The notes under the pieces were generated by a model, which saw only the letters and a program-made list of their open reading frames with translations, had not been told where the DNA came from and did no database searches. From the NCBI GenBank assembly GCA_003221455.1, contig QHRX01000077.1, positions 1-34,341 on the forward strand: DNA of 34,341 nucleotides. The letters run 5' to 3'. The translations under genes were made by a program, and so were the position numbers. Below are positions 22,727 to 30,409 of the stretch, one piece after another (positions within the stretch are counted from its first letter, which is position 1; every line of letters begins with the position of its first letter). The DNA is from Candidatus Rokuibacteriota bacterium. GTDB taxonomy: Bacteria > Methylomirabilota > Methylomirabilia > Rokubacteriales > CSP1-6.

Positions 22727-23863
22727 TCAACCGAGCAGCCGGCGACTGATCACCGATCGCTGGATCTGGCTCGTCCCCTCCCAGATCTGGTAGACGCGCG
22801 CGTCGCGGTAGAGACGCTCGATCGTGAATTCCTTCGAGTAGCCGTAGGCCCCGTGGACCTGGAGGGCGTCGGTCGTGACCCGGGCCGCCGTCTCGGAGGC
22901 GAAGAGCTTGGCCTCCGCGGCCTCGCGGGTGACCGATCGCCCCTGGTCCTTCAGGAAGGCGGCCTTTCGGACGAGGAGGCGCGCGGCCTCGATCGACGCC
23001 GACATATCGGCGATCATGAACTGGATTGCCTGGAACGCGGCGAGCGGCTGGCCGAAGGCGCTCCGTTGCCGGGCGTAGCCGATCGCCTCCCCCATGGCCG
23101 CCTGGGCGATCCCGACGGCCTCCGCGCCCATTCCGATCCGACCCGTGTCGAGCGAGGCCATCGCCCGCTTGAAGCCGTCCCCGGGCGCGGCCAGCAGGCG
23201 CGACGCGGGCACGCGGCAGTCCTCGAAGATCAGCTCGCCCGTGGCCAGGCCGCGGACACCCATGAGGTGCTCCCTCGCGCCGCGGGAGAACCCGGGGGTG
23301 CCGAACTCCACCAGAAAGAGCGCAATGCCCTCCCGGCCCCGCTGCTGGTCTGTCGTGGCGACGACCACCGCCACGTCGCAGACATGCGCGGCCGTGATGA
23401 AGCGCTTGGTGCCGTTGAGGACCCAGCCATCGCCGGCCGGCCGCGCGGAGGTCTGGACGCCGGCCACGTCGGAGCCCGTCCCCGGCTCGGTCTGCGCGAT
23501 GACGCAGATCTTCTCGCCCCGCACGAGAGCCGGCAGGTACGCCTGCCGCTGCGCCTCGCTTCCGTTGTGGAGCAGCATGTCGGTCATCAGCTTGACGAGG
23601 AGCTGGGAGTCGGCGACCGCGGCCGAGGCCCGGGCCAGCTCCTCCTGCACGACCGCCCACGTGAGCGTATCGGCGCCGGCGCCGCCGTACTCGGGCGGCG
23701 CCGTCATCCCGAGGAGCCCGAGGTCGCCCATCCGCTGGTAGAGGTCCCGCGGGAATTCGTCGGTGCGATCGATCTCCGCCGCGCGGGGCTTGATCTCCTT
23801 CTCGGCGAACGCCCGCGCCATCTCCTGCGCGAGCCGCTGGTCCGCGGTGAGGTCGAAGTGCAT
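22727..23863 (-). CDS. Acyl-CoA dehydrogenase
   Basis: This 378-residue FAD enzyme oxidises an acyl-CoA to the enoyl-CoA. It shows the usual length and motifs: PPEYGGAGADTL, IAQTEPGTGSDVAG, LNGTKRFITAA, MASLDTGRIGMGAEAVGIAQAA, and the catalytic glutamate at 362 in YQIWEGTSQI, placed as in short-chain/isovaleryl-type enzymes. Which chain it uses is unknown. GAGGGGGG is a plausible ribosome site before the ATG. An extended -10 box lies 15 bases upstream. No other beta-oxidation or electron-transfer gene is nearby. Confidence 0.94.
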   Translation of the reverse strand: MHFDLTADQRLAQEMARAFAEKEIKPRAAEIDRTDEFPRDLYQRMGDLGLLGMTAPPEYGGAGADTLTWAVVQEELARASAAVADSQLLVKLMTDMLLHNGSEAQRQAYLPALVRGEKICVIAQTEPGTGSDVAGVQTSARPAGDGWVLNGTKRFITAAHVCDVAVVVATTDQQRGREGIALFLVEFGTPGFSRGAREHLMGVRGLATGELIFEDCRVPASRLLAAPGDGFKRAMASLDTGRIGMGAEAVGIAQAAMGEAIGYARQRSAFGQPLAAFQAIQFMIADMSASIEAARLLVRKAAFLKDQGRSVTREAAEAKLFASETAARVTTDALQVHGAYGYSKEFTIERLYRDARVYQIWEGTSQIQRSVISRRLLG

Positions 23864-23878
23864 GCCCCCCTCGCGCCC

Positions 23879-23887
23879 ACCCTAGCA
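23879..23887 (-). promoter_or_regulatory. Extended -10 for the acyl-CoA dehydrogenase gene
   Basis: On the minus strand TGC followed by TAGGGT fits TGnTAnnnT, 15 bases before the ATG at 23863. It lies in the non-coding tail left after the ClC remnant. Confidence 0.35.
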
Positions 23888-23940
23888 CAGGACGGCGTGC
23901 CCGAGTCCGGCCCCGGGGCCCGCGTCAGCTCGACCGGTCG

Positions 23941-24272
23941 GCGAGCGCGCCGGCCGATCGGCACCAGGACCTCGAGCGCGCCCAGGTGGTTGCCCGCCGG
24001 CGGGACGAGCGTCGCGCGCCACCGCCCGAAGAAGAAGAGGGTCGTGAACAGGCCGATCAGGCAGAGCAGCCCCAGCGCGACCCAGGCGCGAGGACGCCGA
24101 TCCCGATCGCGAGGATCGAGACCGGGAGGACGCGGCCGGTCGGCGTGAGGTCGCCGAGCTCGGCGGGGGCGCCGTCACCCTCGGGCGGGCCGATCGCGCG
24201 GGATCGCCTTCCCGGCGCGCCGGCGGCTGGAGCCTCCCGATCCGTCGCGTCGCCGTATCTCGACCTCGCCAT
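23941..24272 (-). pseudogene. Remnant of a ClC-type chloride channel gene (5' part only)
   Basis: Starting at an ATG at 24272, seven bases after the marR stop and with AGGTGA upstream, the first frame gives a polar lead and then RVLPVSILAIGIGVLA, the start of a first membrane helix. It then shifts near 24087-24092. The next frame reads AWVALGLLCLIGLFTTLFFF, then GRW and PAGNHLGALEVLVPI, which is typical of the amino-terminal part of ClC chloride channels. After about 23956 the similarity ends. The remaining 300-plus residues, including all ion-binding motifs, are gone. Both a frameshift and a large truncation are seen, so no channel is made. The marR-ClC order suggests it was once a two-gene operon. 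The tail (23864-23955) holds only a promoter-like box. Confidence 0.7.
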
Positions 24273-24279
24273 TCAGCCG

Positions 24280-24756
24280 TCACCTGTGGATGCGGGCGCC
24301 CCCTCGGTCTCCGGAGTTCCCGGCGTGGGCCACGAGGGACCCGGCGAGCCGCCGGACCGCTGGGCGCACCGCCGCGAGCTCGGCGAGATGGTGCAGCGAG
24401 AGCTCGCGGAGCACCGTCTCTCCCCGCGGCGTGAGTTCAACGAAGACCCGGCGTCGGTCGACGGTTGCGCGGCGCCGCCGCACGAGCTTCCGCTCCACCA
24501 GGCGGTCGATCAGCTCGACGGCGCTGTGGTGTTGCACCTGGAGCCGCTCGGCCAGCTCGCCGACCGTCGCGTGCCCGTGCCGCGGGAGGCCCTTCACGGC
24601 GAGCAGGAGCTGGTGGTGCTGGGGCTCAAGGCCGGCGGCACGGGCCGCCCGCTCGCTGAATCGGAGGAACCGGCGGATCTGGTAGCGGAACTCGGCCAGG
24701 GCCCGGTAGGCGGCCGGCGTCACCCACCCCCGGGCCGCTCGTTTGTATCGTTGCAC
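24280..24756 (-). CDS. MarR family transcriptional regulator
   Basis: This 158-residue winged-helix protein shows the MarR pattern: an amino-terminal helix (AAYRALAEFRYQIRRFLRFSE), LEPQHHQLLLAVKGLP, the recognition helix region GELAERLQVQHHSAVELIDRL, and the wing RRRRATVDRRRVFVELTPRGE. Such proteins bind palindromes as dimers and often respond to small ligands. I favour the GTG at 24756: it is six bases after a -10-like TACGTT and inside a perfect palindrome. A GTG 12 codons further on is possible. The gene next downstream is the ClC remnant, and the liv operon diverges from it, so either could be a target. Confidence 0.88.
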   Translation of the reverse strand: MQRYKRAARGWVTPAAYRALAEFRYQIRRFLRFSERAARAAGLEPQHHQLLLAVKGLPRHGHATVGELAERLQVQHHSAVELIDRLVERKLVRRRRATVDRRRVFVELTPRGETVLRELSLHHLAELAAVRPAVRRLAGSLVAHAGNSGDRGGARIHR

Positions 24757-24766
24757 GATACAAACG
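24740..24766. promoter_or_regulatory. 27-bp perfect palindrome, probable MarR operator
   Basis: The arms CGTTTGTATCGT (24740-24751) and ACGATACAAACG (24755-24766) are exact reverse complements around TGC. The site covers part of the marR -10 box (TACGTT, minus strand 24768-24763) and the first codons of marR. A bound repressor would block RNA polymerase there, so autoregulation is the simplest reading. It is AT-rich against a GC-rich background. Confidence 0.8.
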
Positions 24767-24818
24767 TAGCACACGCGCCGCCTGGGCGGGACGGCCGGCC
24801 CACCCTCGGGCCCGCGCG

Positions 24819-24827
24819 TGGTACACT
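24819..24827 (+). promoter_or_regulatory. Extended -10 promoter for the liv operon
   Basis: TGG followed by TACACT fits the extended -10 form. Transcription would start near 24834, leaving about 44 bases of leader with AAGGAGG (24860-24866) as ribosome site. The palindrome at the marR start lies some 50 bases upstream. Confidence 0.4.
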
Positions 24828-24877
24828 GCGGCGGCGCCGGAGCCCCGGCGCGTTGCGGCAAGGAGGGGTCCCGGGTG

Positions 24878-26095
24878 ATGAGACGGGTGTGGCGCCTCGC
24901 GGCGCCGGTCGCGATCGGGATCGCGGCCGGGTTCACCCCCACCCCGGCCGGCGCCGGCGACGTCCTCAAGATCGGTGCGCCGCTGGCGGCGACGGGGGCA
25001 GAAGCCCGGGAGGGTGCCCTCGCCAAGCAGGGCTACGACCTCTGGGCCGAGACCGTGAACGCCCGCGGCGGGCTCAAGGTCGGGGCGAAGTCCTACCGGG
25101 TCGAGATCATCTATTACGACGATCAGAGCAAGCCCCAGATCTCGGCCGAGCTGACCGACAGGCTGATCAGCCAGGACCACGTGAGCTTCCTGCTCGGGCC
25201 CTACGGCAGCCCGGCGACGTTCGCCGACGCCGCCGTCGCCGAGAAGTATCGGGTCCCGATGGTCGAGGCCAACGGCGCGGCCCGAAAGATCTTTGCCCAG
25301 GGCTACCGCTACGTCTTCGGCGTCCTGAGCCCCGCCGACGAGTACGCGGCCAGCATGCTGAGGGCGGCCGCCACCCTGGCGCCCCGGCCCCAGACGGTCG
25401 CCATCCTGGCCGCCGACGACCTCTTCTCCCTCGAGGTCGCGAACGGGGCGCGGGACTGGGCCGAGAAGAACGGCCTCCGCGTCGTCTACTTCCAGAAGTA
25501 CCCGGTGGGCGTCGCCGACCTGAGCGCCCCGCTGACCAGCATCAAGTCGCTCCGGCCCGACATCCTACTGGGCTCCGGGCATCTGCAGGAGAGTCTCCTG
25601 ATCATGAAGCAGGCGCAGACCCTGGACGTCAGCGTGGGCTTCTACGGCTTCACGGTGGGACCGACGACCCCGGACTTCGTGACCGCGCTCGGACCGGCGG
25701 CCGAGGGGGTCTTCGCGTCGTCCCAGTGGACGCCCGACGTGAAGTACCGGGGACCGGTCTTCGAGACCGCCGCGGCCTACGCGAGGGCCTTCGAGCGCAA
25801 GTACGGGTTCATCCCCGACTATCACGCCGCCGAGAGCAGCGCGGCCGGCGTGGTCCTCCAGCTCGCCGTCGAGAAGGCCCGGAGCGTGGACCCGGCCCAG
25901 GTGCGGGAGGCGCTGGCCTCGCTCGACGCGATGACGTTTTACGGGCCGGTCCGGTTCAACGCCCAAGGGCTGAACGACCGGAAACCGATGGTGACCGTGC
26001 AGATCCAGCAGGGCCGGGTGGTCACGATCTGGCCCCGGGAGGTCGCGGCGGCGAAGGCCATCTACCCGACCCCGCCCTGGAGCGCGCGGAAGTAA
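24878..26095 (+). CDS. livJ: Branched-chain amino acid ABC transporter substrate-binding protein
   Basis: This 405-residue exported protein belongs to the type I periplasmic binding fold family (Leu/Ile/Val-binding and relatives, Peripla_BP_6). It has a signal ending near residue 26 (PTPAGAGD), then LKIGAPLAATGAEAREG, the IIYYDDQSKP strand, and FLLGPYGSPATFADAA. The length is normal. The ATG at 24878 and a GTG three bases before it are both in frame behind AAGGAGG; spacing slightly favours the GTG. The full liv set follows, so this protein delivers a branched-chain amino acid, amide or similar compound. The exact ligand is unknown. Confidence 0.92.
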   Translation: MRRVWRLAAPVAIGIAAGFTPTPAGAGDVLKIGAPLAATGAEAREGALAKQGYDLWAETVNARGGLKVGAKSYRVEIIYYDDQSKPQISAELTDRLISQDHVSFLLGPYGSPATFADAAVAEKYRVPMVEANGAARKIFAQGYRYVFGVLSPADEYAASMLRAAATLAPRPQTVAILAADDLFSLEVANGARDWAEKNGLRVVYFQKYPVGVADLSAPLTSIKSLRPDILLGSGHLQESLLIMKQAQTLDVSVGFYGFTVGPTTPDFVTALGPAAEGVFASSQWTPDVKYRGPVFETAAAYARAFERKYGFIPDYHAAESSAAGVVLQLAVEKARSVDPAQVREALASLDAMTFYGPVRFNAQGLNDRKPMVTVQIQQGRVVTIWPREVAAAKAIYPTPPWSARK

Positions 26096-26138
26096 CGAGC
26101 CGGGTGGCCGACGGCCGCGGCTCCGCTCGGGCCCCCGC

Positions 26139-27010
26139 GTGAGCCCGGAGCTCCAGATCGCGCTCCAGAACGCGATCAACGGGCTCCTGCTGGGCGGCAC
26201 CTACGCGCTGGTGGCCGTCGGTTTCTCGCTCGTCTGGGGAGTCCTCAACGTCGTCAACCTCGCGCATGGCTCCCTGGTCATGCTCGGGGCCTACGTGACG
26301 TACTGGCTCTACACCCGCTACCGTCTGGACCCGTTCGCGACCCTCCCCCTCACCGGCCTCGCCCTCTTTGGCGTTGGCTACCCGCTGCAGCGTCTCGTCA
26401 TCAACCAGGTGATCCGCGCCTCGTTCCTGATCACGTTCCTCCTGACCTTTGGCCTGGACCTCCTCGTGACCAACCTGGCGCTCGCGGCGTGGACGGCCGA
26501 CGTGCGCGCGGTCACGACGCCCTACTCGGGGCGGAGTCTCGCCCTCGGCCCGCTGGCGCTGCCGCTCGTCCGGGCGATCGCCCTGTTCGTGGCGCTCGGA
26601 GCCGCGGCGCTACTCCAGCTGCTGCTGACCCGCACGCGGCTCGGCAGCGCGATCCGCGCCACCGCCTCGGACCTGGAAGCGGCGCGCCTGATGGGCATCC
26701 CGGTCGCCCGCGTCTACGCCCTCACGTTCGCGATCGCCGCGGCGACGGCTGGCGTCGCGGGCGGCCTCATCAGCCTGAGCTTCCCGATCTTCCCCGCGAT
26801 GGGCGCCGGGTACACGCTGATCGCGTTCGTGGTCTGCGTGCTGGGCGGGCTCGGCAGCGTTCCCGGCGCCTTCCTGGGCGGGCTCCTACCTACGCGGCGG
26901 CCTGGCTCGGCCCGAACTACGACAACATCGTGGCGTTCAGCGCCCTCGTCCTGGTGCTCGTCCTCCGCCCCGCCGGCCTCCTCGGCCGGGCCGAGCAGTT
27001 CCGCGGATGA
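26139..27010 (+). pseudogene. livH: Branched-chain amino acid ABC permease LivH, frameshifted near its end
   Basis: LivH is one of the two membrane subunits of the importer. The first frame from GTG 26139 gives QNAINGLLLGGTYALVAVGF, VNLAHGSLVMLGAY and IRATASDLEAARLMGIPVARVYALTF, then VCVLGGLGSVPGAFLGGLL to about 26887. The next frame continues YAAAWLGPNYDNIVAFSALVLVLVLRPAGLLGR and stops at 27010 in an ATGA overlap with livM. Homologues have about six more residues (an LGLVE-like piece) between GGLL and YAAAW, so about 16 bases appear deleted. Without a shift, translation runs on open to 27935 as nonsense. This is a broken gene or an assembly error. Confidence 0.85.
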
Positions 27011-27948
27011 CGCCCGCCCTCTCCGTGACCGCGCGGCGGGCCGGGGGGTGGCGGCTGGCGCTCGTGCTCGCGCTGGCCGTCGCGGTCGGCCTGCCCGCCC
27101 TGACGAACACCTACTACGTCCGGCTCGCGACGGGCATCCTCATGTTCGCCGCCCTCGCCTGCGGATGGAACCTGATCGGCGGCTACGCTGGCTACCCGGA
27201 CTTCGGGGCGGCGGCGTTCCTCGGCATCGGGGCCTACACGACCGGCGTCCTCATGGCGCGGGCGGCGGTCCCGTTCCCGCTGGCGCTCCTGGCCGGGGGC
27301 GCCGTGCTGCTCCGCCTGCGCGGGCACTACTTCGCGATCGCGACACTCGGCTTCATGCTCGTGCTCCAGCAGCTGGCGGCGAACCTCGAGCTGACCGGGG
27401 GCGGCTCGGGGATGAACCTGCCGGTGGCGCGGAGCTTCACGACCTTCTACTACTGGATGCTCGGCGTGTGCGCGCTCGCGGTGGCGGCCGGCCTCTCCCT
27501 GCCCCGGCTGCGGGTCGGCTACGCGATCGCCGCCATCCGCGAGAATCAGGCGGCGGCGGAAGCCCTCGGCATCGCGCCCCTGCCGTACAAGATCGTCGCC
27601 TATTCGGGCAGCGCCTTCGTCTTCGGGCTCGTCGGCGGCGTGTACGCCTACTGGTTCACGTTCATCGATCCTCCGACCGTGTTCAACGTGGACTTCGCGA
27701 TCCAGGCGATCGTGATGACGCTGTTCGGCGGCCCCGCGACCGCGCTCGGTCCCGTGGCGGGCGCGATCGTCCTCAAGAGCCTCGACACGGTGCTCACGAA
27801 CGTCTCGATCTTCCTCCACAACGTGTTCTTCGGCGCGCTCGTGTGCCTGCTCGTGGTCTTCGCCCCGCGGGGCCTCGCCGACCTCCGGCGTGCGCGCGGC
27901 GGGATCCTCGCGGCGCTCCGGGCGACGTTGCGTGAGAACCGGATCTGA
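27007..27948 (+). CDS. livM: Branched-chain amino acid ABC permease LivM, possible in-frame deletion
   Basis: LivM is the second membrane subunit. This 313-residue protein has the usual NLIGGYAGYPDFGAAAFLG segment, LRLRGHYFAIATLGF, the coupling loop AIRENQAAAEALGIAPLPYK and several hydrophobic helices. Between LLAGGAV and LLRLRGHY the family normally has about 13-15 more residues that complete a helix (GLLLGLP-like). These are absent here without a frame change, near 27300-27315. Its ATG overlaps the livH stop by four bases, and its stop overlaps the livG start (TGATG). Whether the shortened helix still works is doubtful. Confidence 0.9.
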   Translation: MTPALSVTARRAGGWRLALVLALAVAVGLPALTNTYYVRLATGILMFAALACGWNLIGGYAGYPDFGAAAFLGIGAYTTGVLMARAAVPFPLALLAGGAVLLRLRGHYFAIATLGFMLVLQQLAANLELTGGGSGMNLPVARSFTTFYYWMLGVCALAVAAGLSLPRLRVGYAIAAIRENQAAAEALGIAPLPYKIVAYSGSAFVFGLVGGVYAYWFTFIDPPTVFNVDFAIQAIVMTLFGGPATALGPVAGAIVLKSLDTVLTNVSIFLHNVFFGALVCLLVVFAPRGLADLRRARGGILAALRATLRENRI

Positions 27949-28682
27949 TGCCCCTCTTGGCGGTGCAGGGGCTCACCAAGCTCTTCGGGCGACTGGTCGC
28001 GGTCGACCACGTGGACCTCGCGATCGAAGCGGGCGAGGTCGTCGGGCTCATCGGCCCAAACGGCGCCGGCAAGAGTACCCTCGTGAACCTGATCAGCGGG
28101 TTCGAGCCGCCGTCGGAGGGCGCCGTCGCCTTCGCCGGACGCCCGCTCGACGCGCTCGGTGCCCCGGCGATCGCGCGCCTCGGGCTCGCCCGCACCTTCC
28201 AGATCGCCCAGCCCTTCCGCGCGATGACGGTCCGCCAGAACGTGGCGGTGCCCGCGCTGTTTCGCGCCGTGCCCGCACCGAGCGTCGGGGCGGCGCTCCG
28301 GGAGGCGGACCGCCTGCTCGACTCGGTCGGGCTCGGGCCGAAGGCCGCGCTACCCGCGGGGGCCCTCACGACCCCGGACCTGCGCCGGCTCGAGTTGGCC
28401 AAGGCACTCGCGCTCCAGCCCCGGCTGATGTTGCTCGACGAGGTCATGGCCGGCCTCACCCCGGCCGAGGTCGACGCGGCGATGGCGCTGCTGCGGGAGG
28501 TCAACGCGCGCGGCATCGCGCTCCTGGTGATCGAGCACGTGCTGCGGGCGGTGATGGGGCTCTCGAGCCGCGTCGTCGTCCTCCACCATGGCCGCAAGAT
28601 CGCCGAGGGGCCGCCCGCCCGGGTGACGGCCGACCCCGCGGTCATCGAGGCCTACCTGGGACCGGGGCCGGCCTCCCGATGA
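27948..28682 (+). CDS. livG: Branched-chain amino acid ABC transporter ATPase LivG
   Basis: This 244-residue ATPase has Walker A GPNGAGKST, the Q-loop area ARTFQIAQPF, a region TTPDLRRLELAKAL in place of the usual LSxGQ wording, Walker B LMLLDEVMAGLTPAE, and the switch histidine in VIEHVLRAV. The LSGGQ-type signature is therefore replaced by TTPDLRR, a variant I also associate with LivG relatives in uncultured high-GC bacteria. The carboxyl end has the DPAVIEAYLG motif. It overlaps livM by one base and livF by four. Confidence 0.93.
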   Translation: MPLLAVQGLTKLFGRLVAVDHVDLAIEAGEVVGLIGPNGAGKSTLVNLISGFEPPSEGAVAFAGRPLDALGAPAIARLGLARTFQIAQPFRAMTVRQNVAVPALFRAVPAPSVGAALREADRLLDSVGLGPKAALPAGALTTPDLRRLELAKALALQPRLMLLDEVMAGLTPAEVDAAMALLREVNARGIALLVIEHVLRAVMGLSSRVVVLHHGRKIAEGPPARVTADPAVIEAYLGPGPASR

Positions 28683-29404
28683 GGCCGCAGCTCGAGGTGC
28701 AAAACGTGGATGCGGGCTACGGAGCCGTCCAAGTGCTCTGGGACGTCTCGCTCGAGGTGGGAGCAGGCGAGGCGGTCGCGCTCATCGGGGCCAACGGCGC
28801 CGGCAAGTCCACGCTCCTCCGTGTGATCTCGGGCCTCCTCCGGCCCGAGCGGGGCCGGGTGGCATTCCAGCAGCGCGACGTCACGGGCCTCCCGCCGGAG
28901 CGTCTCGTCCACCTCGGAATCGCCCACGTCCCGCAAGGCCGACGCCTCTTCTCCGACCTCTCGGTTCGCGAGAACCTGCTCCTCGGCGCCTGGGCGCGGC
29001 GGGAGCGGGCCGCGATCGCGGCCGACCTCGAGCACATGCTCGACCTGTTCCCCGCCCTCGCCGATCGCCTGGCGCTCCCCGCTCGCCAGCTCTCCGGCGG
29101 CGAGCAACAGATGGCCGCGGTCGCGCGCGCGCTCATGGCGCGCCCGCGCCTTCTCCTGATCGACGAGCCGTCGCTCGGGCTGGCGCCCCTCGCCGTGCGA
29201 GCGCTGATGGAGGTCGTGGTCCGGCTCCGGCGCGAAGGCGTGAGCATCCTGCTCGTGGAGCAGGACGTGACGGTGGCGCTCGGCCACGCCGATCGCGGCT
29301 ACGTCCTGGAGACGGGACGGATCGTCCTCGCCGACAGGGCGGCGGTGCTCCTCGAGAACCCGCAGGTTCGCCGGGTCTACCTCGGTCTCACCGCGACGTC
29401 GTGA
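28679..29404 (+). CDS. livF: Branched-chain amino acid ABC transporter ATPase LivF
   Basis: This 241-residue ATPase is the partner of LivG. The motifs are GYGAVQVLWDVSLEV, Walker A GANGAGKST, the Q-loop-like HVPQGRRLFSDLSVREN, the signature LSGGEQQM, Walker B LLLIDEPSLGLAPL and LLVEQDVTVAL. It ends with VRRVYLG, typical of LivF. The ATG at 28679 overlaps the livG stop by four bases. The 123 bases after it, up to the convergent M23 gene, hold a 13-bp palindrome (29480-29492) without a T-run and no gene. Confidence 0.94.
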   Translation: MRPQLEVQNVDAGYGAVQVLWDVSLEVGAGEAVALIGANGAGKSTLLRVISGLLRPERGRVAFQQRDVTGLPPERLVHLGIAHVPQGRRLFSDLSVRENLLLGAWARRERAAIAADLEHMLDLFPALADRLALPARQLSGGEQQMAAVARALMARPRLLLIDEPSLGLAPLAVRALMEVVVRLRREGVSILLVEQDVTVALGHADRGYVLETGRIVLADRAAVLLENPQVRRVYLGLTATS

Positions 29405-29527
29405 GCGGGGCCCACGCCGGCGGGACGCGGCCGGGCCATCCGGAGAGGTCCTATTCGGCAGGGACCGCCGAGGCGCCGCCACGGGACCCGTGAGGACCGC
29501 GCACGGCACGTGGCGAGTTCGACGCGG

Positions 29528-30409
29528 CTAGTTCCACATGTAGAGGCGCGGGTTCACCGAGTGGCCCTTGACGATGATCTCGTAGTGCAGGTGCGGACCG
29601 GAGGACTTGCCGGTGTTCCCGGTGAGCGCGATCAACTGCCCGCGCACCACCTGCTGCCCGGGCGCGACCAGCAGCTTCGACAAGTGCCCGTAGATGGTCC
29701 GAATGTCGTGGCCGTGCTCGAGGATCAGGCAGAGCCCGAACTCGCCCTGCTCCCCCGCAAACACGACGGTGCCCGGCGCCGGGGCGTGGACGCCCGCACC
29801 GCGATCGGCGGCGATGTCGAGCCCGCTGTGGAACTCCTCCGCCCCCGTCCACGGCGAGGGGCGGGTGCCAAATTCCGAGTTGACGGCGCCGCGCACGGGC
29901 CAGCGCGACGGCATGAGCGCGAGCGCCTTGCCGGCATGCTCCATCAGCCGCTCAAGCGCCCGGAGGTTCTGGCCCGCCTCGCCGACCGTCTCGGCGAGCC
30001 CGTCAAGCTCCTCGAGCGCTGACGGCTTGTGCCCGGCGGGTTCGGGCAGCGCCGTGGCACCACCGATCCCCGGAGTCCTCCGCACGAGCCCGACGTCGGG
30101 GCCGAACGGTTCCCAGATCTTCGCGTCGAGCTCGCGCCAAGAACCAACCTCGAGCCGGATCTCGGCGATCCGCTTCCGGAGGGCGGTGACGATCCCGTGT
30201 TGTTCGGCGAGCTCGCGCTGCAAGGCGGCGGGGCTGGCGGCCAATTTCCGCACGCGGATGTAGTCGCCGACGAGCACGGACACGGTGGTGAACCCGAGCG
30301 TCACCACCACGACGGCGGCCGAGACCGCCCACCCCGGCAGGTGCACGCGCACCGGCCGGGACCCGTCGCTCGAGACGATGAAGATGTTGAGCCGTCGAGC
30401 GCGGCTCAC
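29528..30409 (-). CDS. M23 family metallopeptidase (LytM-type) with N-terminal membrane anchor
   Basis: This 293-residue zinc peptidase cuts peptidoglycan cross-bridges or stems. It has a short cytoplasmic lead, a membrane helix at about 26-48 (WAVSAAVVVVTLGFTTVSVL), a coiled-coil-like stretch (about 58-100, EQHGIVTALRKRIAEIR), and the M23 domain from about 170. The zinc ligands are His194 and Asp198 (HSGLD) and His275, with His273 in PHLHYE. The domain is complete. It starts four bases after the bactofilin stop. Bactofilin and M23 genes are often paired in shape-control loci (for example CcmA and Csd1 in Helicobacter), so a role in local wall remodelling is likely. Confidence 0.93.
   Translation of the reverse strand: MSRARRLNIFIVSSDGSRPVRVHLPGWAVSAAVVVVTLGFTTVSVLVGDYIRVRKLAASPAALQRELAEQHGIVTALRKRIAEIRLEVGSWRELDAKIWEPFGPDVGLVRRTPGIGGATALPEPAGHKPSALEELDGLAETVGEAGQNLRALERLMEHAGKALALMPSRWPVRGAVNSEFGTRPSPWTGAEEFHSGLDIAADRGAGVHAPAPGTVVFAGEQGEFGLCLILEHGHDIRTIYGHLSKLLVAPGQQVVRGQLIALTGNTGKSSGPHLHYEIIVKGHSVNPRLYMWN

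Follow-up and report, generated by a model that had tools for sequence, protein, structure and literature searches.

A palindromic site in the promoter region of the regulator's own gene is a trait of the MarR family, whose members act as homodimers that come off DNA upon ligand binding or oxidation, and autoregulatory operators of this type are a known kind. For SCO3205 of Streptomyces coelicolor, operator sites were identified by comparison, SPR and crystal structure, with base contacts coming from the N-terminal half of helix alpha-4 (PMC3737563). The locus considered here lies in a 34,341-nucleotide stretch of Candidatus Rokuibacteriota DNA, hereafter the window, and its marR appears to share the family trait. 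As for SCO3205, putative autoregulatory pseudopalindromes upstream of the regulator gene were predicted through comparison of orthologues, and the contacts of helix alpha-4 may find a likeness in the window protein; the operator there, however, is TTnAAnnnTCAA as against TATCGT-N3-ACGATA here, and SCO3205 has two operators and a proven divergent site, while the window has one putative site (PMC3737563). HucR and other divergent MarR regulators likewise have a single site between divergent genes, but in those systems the divergent gene is the target, whereas in the window the link to the divergent gene is not conserved (PMC5487221). Three things are new at the locus, namely the partner, which is a ClC gene, the family to which the operator belongs, and the putative intermediate state in which the window is found.

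The palindrome, CGTTTGTATCGT-TGC-ACGATACAAACG, is the perfect 12-3-12 inverted repeat at 24740-24766 that the initial annotation had reported, with 12 of 12 arm positions complementary around a 3-nt spacer. No other perfect inverted repeat with arms of at least 12 and a spacing of 0-8 occurs in the window; when the window was simulated with a first-order Markov model, such repeats averaged 0.18 per sequence, and in 100 simulations none of them reached an AT content of 50%. The description of the site as an AT-rich spot in GC-rich DNA was equally accurate, since of all 27-mers in the window the one poorest in GC begins at 24742 (GC 0.37, against 0.71 for the window as a whole). Within its own 4.41 Mb genome the 21-bp core TTGTATCGTNNNACGATACAA occurs once even when up to 3 mismatches are allowed, and the 15-bp core TATCGTNNNACGATA is exact only at the palindrome, recurring with one mismatch at one more place and with two mismatches at twelve. 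A genome scan for the half-site CGTTTGTATCGT (up to 1 mismatch), suggested earlier as a check, did return four other places, every one of them a lone, unpaired half-site. The one-mismatch core (TATCGTGAGCCGATA, L127:1501-1515, i.e., G000:C255:17269-17283) lies just 5' of a GNAT acetyltransferase gene; because about 0.9 such cores are expected by chance in this genome (base-composition arithmetic), C255:17269 is not claimed as a second copy of the operator. The features of the locus are collected in Table 1.

Table 1. Features of the marR locus, in window coordinates.
Feature	Position	Strand	Basis and remarks
Acyl-CoA dehydrogenase gene, next after the clcA stump	22727..23863	-	Pfam
Block with clcA stump, marR, operator and liv genes (5.66 kb)	23865..29526		Congener G033 has the same two flanking genes but lacks the block between them
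Broken clcA (ClC channel), with its N-terminus split over two frames	23953..24233	-	tblastn; no homology beyond about residue 116 of 506
marR	24283..24723	-	Pfam, AlphaFold2 model; likely start GTG 24723-24721, by homologue comparison; 147 codons before stop
Perfect 12-3-12 palindrome, putative MarR operator	24740..24766		24746-24760 holds the conserved core TATCGT-N3-ACGATA
Branched-chain amino acid type ABC binding protein gene, divergent from marR	24878..26095	+	Pfam Peripla_BP_6 and others

The protein encoded beside the palindrome exceeds the curated Pfam cut-offs for the MarR domain with both MarR_2 (PF12802, 47.9 bits vs. 27) and PF01047 (34.4 vs. 24.6), and matches none of the named MarR equivalogs (HpaR, SlyA, OhrR, FabT, AdcR, E. 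coli MarR), for which the best score was 33.5 bits against NCBIfam cut-offs of at least 120. Its AlphaFold2 model (mean pLDDT 88.4) is predicted to have the winged helix-turn-helix fold of solved MarR proteins and places a putative recognition helix, with Ser67 and Glu70, at residues 65-77; the PDB entries matching the model, with E between about 3e-6 and 2e-5, are MarR proteins, several of them solved in complex with operator DNA. An in-frame GTG sits at the centre of the palindrome, and a start at that codon would put the first codons of marR over it, as originally annotated. This overlap was not borne out, because homologous MarR proteins start 3' of their palindromes. In 66 of 69 Bryobacterales loci a start codon, in whichever frame, lies no more than 22 nt past the core, distances of 3 and 5 nt being the most frequent; GTG 24723, 16 nt downstream of the palindrome, is thus preferred over the central GTG as the likely start. 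Nor could coverage of the -10 box be confirmed, as a sigma-70 consensus scan of 24600-24950 returned no promoter-like site on either strand and the match to TATAAT is weak here (GATACAAAC). In relatives, the marR-proximal half of the palindrome runs on into TATAAT-like sequence (CGATATAATC in L007), which makes an overlap with the -10 of marR plausible.

Comparison of the upstream regions of orthologues had been set beforehand as the refuting test, and it returned an equivalent palindrome in both groups of genomes covered, the window's own family and the Bryobacterales. In the order, MarR homologues were found at E <= 1e-15 in 18 of 60 genomes, the own genome counted, and in the phylum at 1e-20 in 18 of 95, all within one family. 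A TATC..GATA palindrome lies upstream in 19 of the 20 homologue places outside the own genome, L020 being the exception. In at least 14 of the 19 family regions fetched, the gene 3' of marR codes for a short lipoprotein (ad hoc ORF caller), and the one such lipoprotein that was scanned belongs to the OmpA family. These marR and OmpA-type lipoprotein pairs (L029-L046) have the closest MarR on the tree and a palindrome in the same place as the window, from which they differ in the partner gene and, for 12 of 19 operators, in having TATCA together with Gln70. Loci L003, L005 and L021 apparently carry a second TATCA-type palindrome in tandem, further upstream of marR. At L034:9156-10193 (+) (G010:C67), marR and the OmpA-type gene share a single 345-codon open frame, possibly a MarR-lipoprotein fusion or the result of a lost stop. 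In L035 (G012:C310) the OmpA-type protein 3' of marR continues into a stretch with CxxCH, which we take to be a haem-binding motif, and may be a cytochrome fusion.

A scan for the exact core in contigs of 84,980 species, with no selection for MarR, gave six loci. Two of these (L023 and L024, both Bryobacterales) lie directly 5' of a MarR 49-51% identical to that of the window; the remaining four (L025-L028), with no match to the window MarR and no evident marR beside the site, were set aside. The gene 3' of marR is a ClC gene both in L024 (Pfam Voltage_CLC, 254.8 bits, cut-off 24.8) and in L023 (by similarity; L052 is the same place), and the L024 partner scored 162 and 156.5 against the ClcB and ClcA equivalogs, below their cut-offs of 482 and 350. 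Using the L024 MarR as query against 250 Bryobacterales genomes, we retrieved 75 places in 72 genomes (L051-L125), with upstream sequence for 74. The operator core was present with no more than two mismatches in 69 of the 74, and exactly in 52 of these, while shuffled controls reached two mismatches in 6 of 1480 cases and never fewer. A ClC gene follows marR on the same strand in 68 of the 74 and in L066, hence in 69 of 75 places. The operator is missing in L092, L094, L098, L103 and L104, and for four of these five the sequence fetched shows no ClC gene either. In L114 and L117, by contrast, the operator is present although the sequence fetched gave no ClC match. No paper on this marR-clcA module was found in searches of an open-access library; one may exist elsewhere.

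The window resembles the Bryobacterales pairs in its homologous MarR, in the operator core, which stands exact before marR, and in ClC sequence following on the same strand; clcA continues there as a ClC gene, whereas only a frameshifted N-terminal stump, and no intact ClC gene, follows marR in the window. Bryobacterales ClC proteins used as tblastn queries matched directly 3' of marR in the frames 24233-24072 and 24081-23956 (joint E 5.5e-15), and 24087-23953 aligned with the ClC protein of L113 over 45 residues at 75.6% identity (E 9.4e-20). Recognition of this remnant rests on tblastn, since Pfam gave no ClC match to the two fragments alone. The frameshift could in part be an assembly error; the truncation is harder to explain in that way. 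Congener G033 has the acyl-CoA dehydrogenase gene next to the peptidase-like gene (window 29528-30409), with 256 bp between the two and neither marR nor liv beside them, so that the whole 5.66-kb block is absent there; at E <= 1e-15 neither G032 nor G033 has a marR.

Upstream sequence exists for 95 MarR rows; an operator is present in 89 of them, and in all 89 the operator base and the helix residues agree. In 77 of 77 cases with a TATCG operator, residue 67 is Ser or Thr and residue 70 is Glu (50) or Gly (27), while in 12 of 12 with TATCA residue 70 is Gln and residue 67 is Ala, Gly or Asn. The difference between the two operators is symmetric, altering both half-sites, and both residues fall inside the predicted recognition helix. 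In the structure reported for the SCO3205 complex with DNA, His77 touches a guanine (PMC3737563), and position 70 would correspond to this histidine if the conserved arginines (74 here, 81 in SCO3205) are aligned. In the best tree the TATCA rows form one clade, with unstarred support of 69/87, and the agreement between helix and operator counts as a single event and not as a statistical replicate, because the change happened once on the tree.

By far the best explanation of the palindrome, to which we assign a probability of roughly 0.87, is that it serves as the autoregulatory operator of the adjacent MarR. The original suggestion to this effect is strongly supported by comparison, through the equivalent sites just upstream of this marR family in two distant genome groups (19 of 20 family and 69 of 74 Bryobacterales homologues) and through the co-variation of their sequence with the recognition helix; the homologues in which the site is missing, 5 of 74 in Bryobacterales and 1 of 20 in the family, count against it. 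A MarR dimer would set one recognition helix in each TATCGT half-site and, once bound, would block the marR promoter, repressing marR and anything cotranscribed with it until a ligand or condition releases the protein. In Bryobacterales the gene after marR is the ClC channel/antiporter, which may come under the same repression. In the window the remaining circuit would consist mainly of marR repressing itself, because clcA is a stump there; it may be regarded as the autorepressor of a marR-clcA module with a decayed target gene, and the divergent liv genes, if affected at all, would be so only because of where they lie.

A nucleic acid hairpin, acting as attenuator or terminator in place of a protein site, is conceivable insofar as a transcript starting upstream could fold the site into a 12-bp stem closed by a 3-nt loop, but we consider it very improbable. 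The letters are conserved and not the pairing alone: outside the core only 27-58 of 89 loci pair, while the core letters are nearly fixed, although for TATC..GATA this conservation is partly by construction because the operator finder favoured those bases. Moreover, the core changes with the recognition helix of a protein, and the scan of 24600-24950 showed no terminator-like site. Alternatively, marR and its site may no longer work and be drifting along with the broken clcA. The state of clcA and the lack of marR in G032 and G033 would agree with such a relic, yet marR is an intact open frame with a family-typical helix, and the palindrome matches perfectly over arms of 12 bp, whereas most relatives have shorter ones; the two together suggest that both are maintained, and we judge decay of the regulator improbable.

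The same MarR dimer might also control the divergent liv operon, perhaps as a new job taken up after the decay of clcA. The binding-protein gene is followed by permease and ATPase genes up to 29404 (Pfam), and its likely start, ATG 24878, is 111 nt from the palindrome; the liv promoter that had been placed about 50 bases away was not found by the scan. The divergent layout, in which the 154 nt separating the likely marR and liv starts contain a single operator, would suit shared control, divergent genes being often controlled by MarR regulators (PMC5487221). Further arguments on this side are the presence of marR and liv in one block absent from G033, and locus L047, where a liv operon likewise diverges from the gene of a distant MarR (43% identical), the divergent protein being 24% identical; liv genes occur in the fetched marR stretches of L040 and L045 as well, though not divergently. 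Against this, the core was found within three mismatches upstream of none of the 19 other homologous binding-protein genes of the order that were fetched, among the matches listed. The binding protein had no match at E <= 1e-60 in the 250 Bryobacterales genomes, no liv genes were seen in the 8 longer Bryobacterales marR regions, liv has no further operator closer to it, and the scan of 24600-24950 showed no promoter. Control of liv from this site, raised in the initial annotation, is therefore not supported and seems unlikely, if somewhat less so than decay of the regulator; the conspicuous neighbour is probably not the regulated gene. The idea that liv was the ancestral MarR target was rejected on the same three comparisons, with the liv homologues, the Bryobacterales genomes and their marR regions.

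Returning to autoregulation, the tree offers a possible history of the locus. Among 96 rows, the window MarR is sister to its 19 relatives in the family, with starred support of 97/81, and together they are nested among Bryobacterales rows, the root being placed by midpoint only. The simplest reading is that the lineage once had marR-clcA, of which the window would have kept the old operator and the clcA stump, while its sisters would have gained an OmpA-type partner and, in some cases, a new operator code. More broadly, we tentatively propose, at slightly less than even odds, an undescribed family of MarR repressors dedicated to Bryobacterales ClC transporters. The window's lineage would have lost the channel and its sisters gained the OmpA-type lipoprotein partner, part of them then switching from TATCG to TATCA in both half-sites (Glu70 to Gln, Ser67 to Ala, Gly or Asn), and the window genome would be a surviving intermediate with the old code, a broken channel and no new partner. 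For a ClC-linked MarR group that has apparently not been studied, the comparison provides a defined putative operator together with candidate residues for specificity. The genomes would also form a natural series in three states, the old code beside a channel, the old code beside a broken channel, and the new code beside another partner gene; repressor rewiring could be probed in it via two residues and one symmetric base pair.

The only ClC gene detected by Pfam in the window's own genome, L050:2377-4137 (-) (G000:C295), is 31% identical to the Bryobacterales type and represents another type. Any Voltage_CLC match was present in only 2 of 59 genomes of the order, the other being a short piece in G053.
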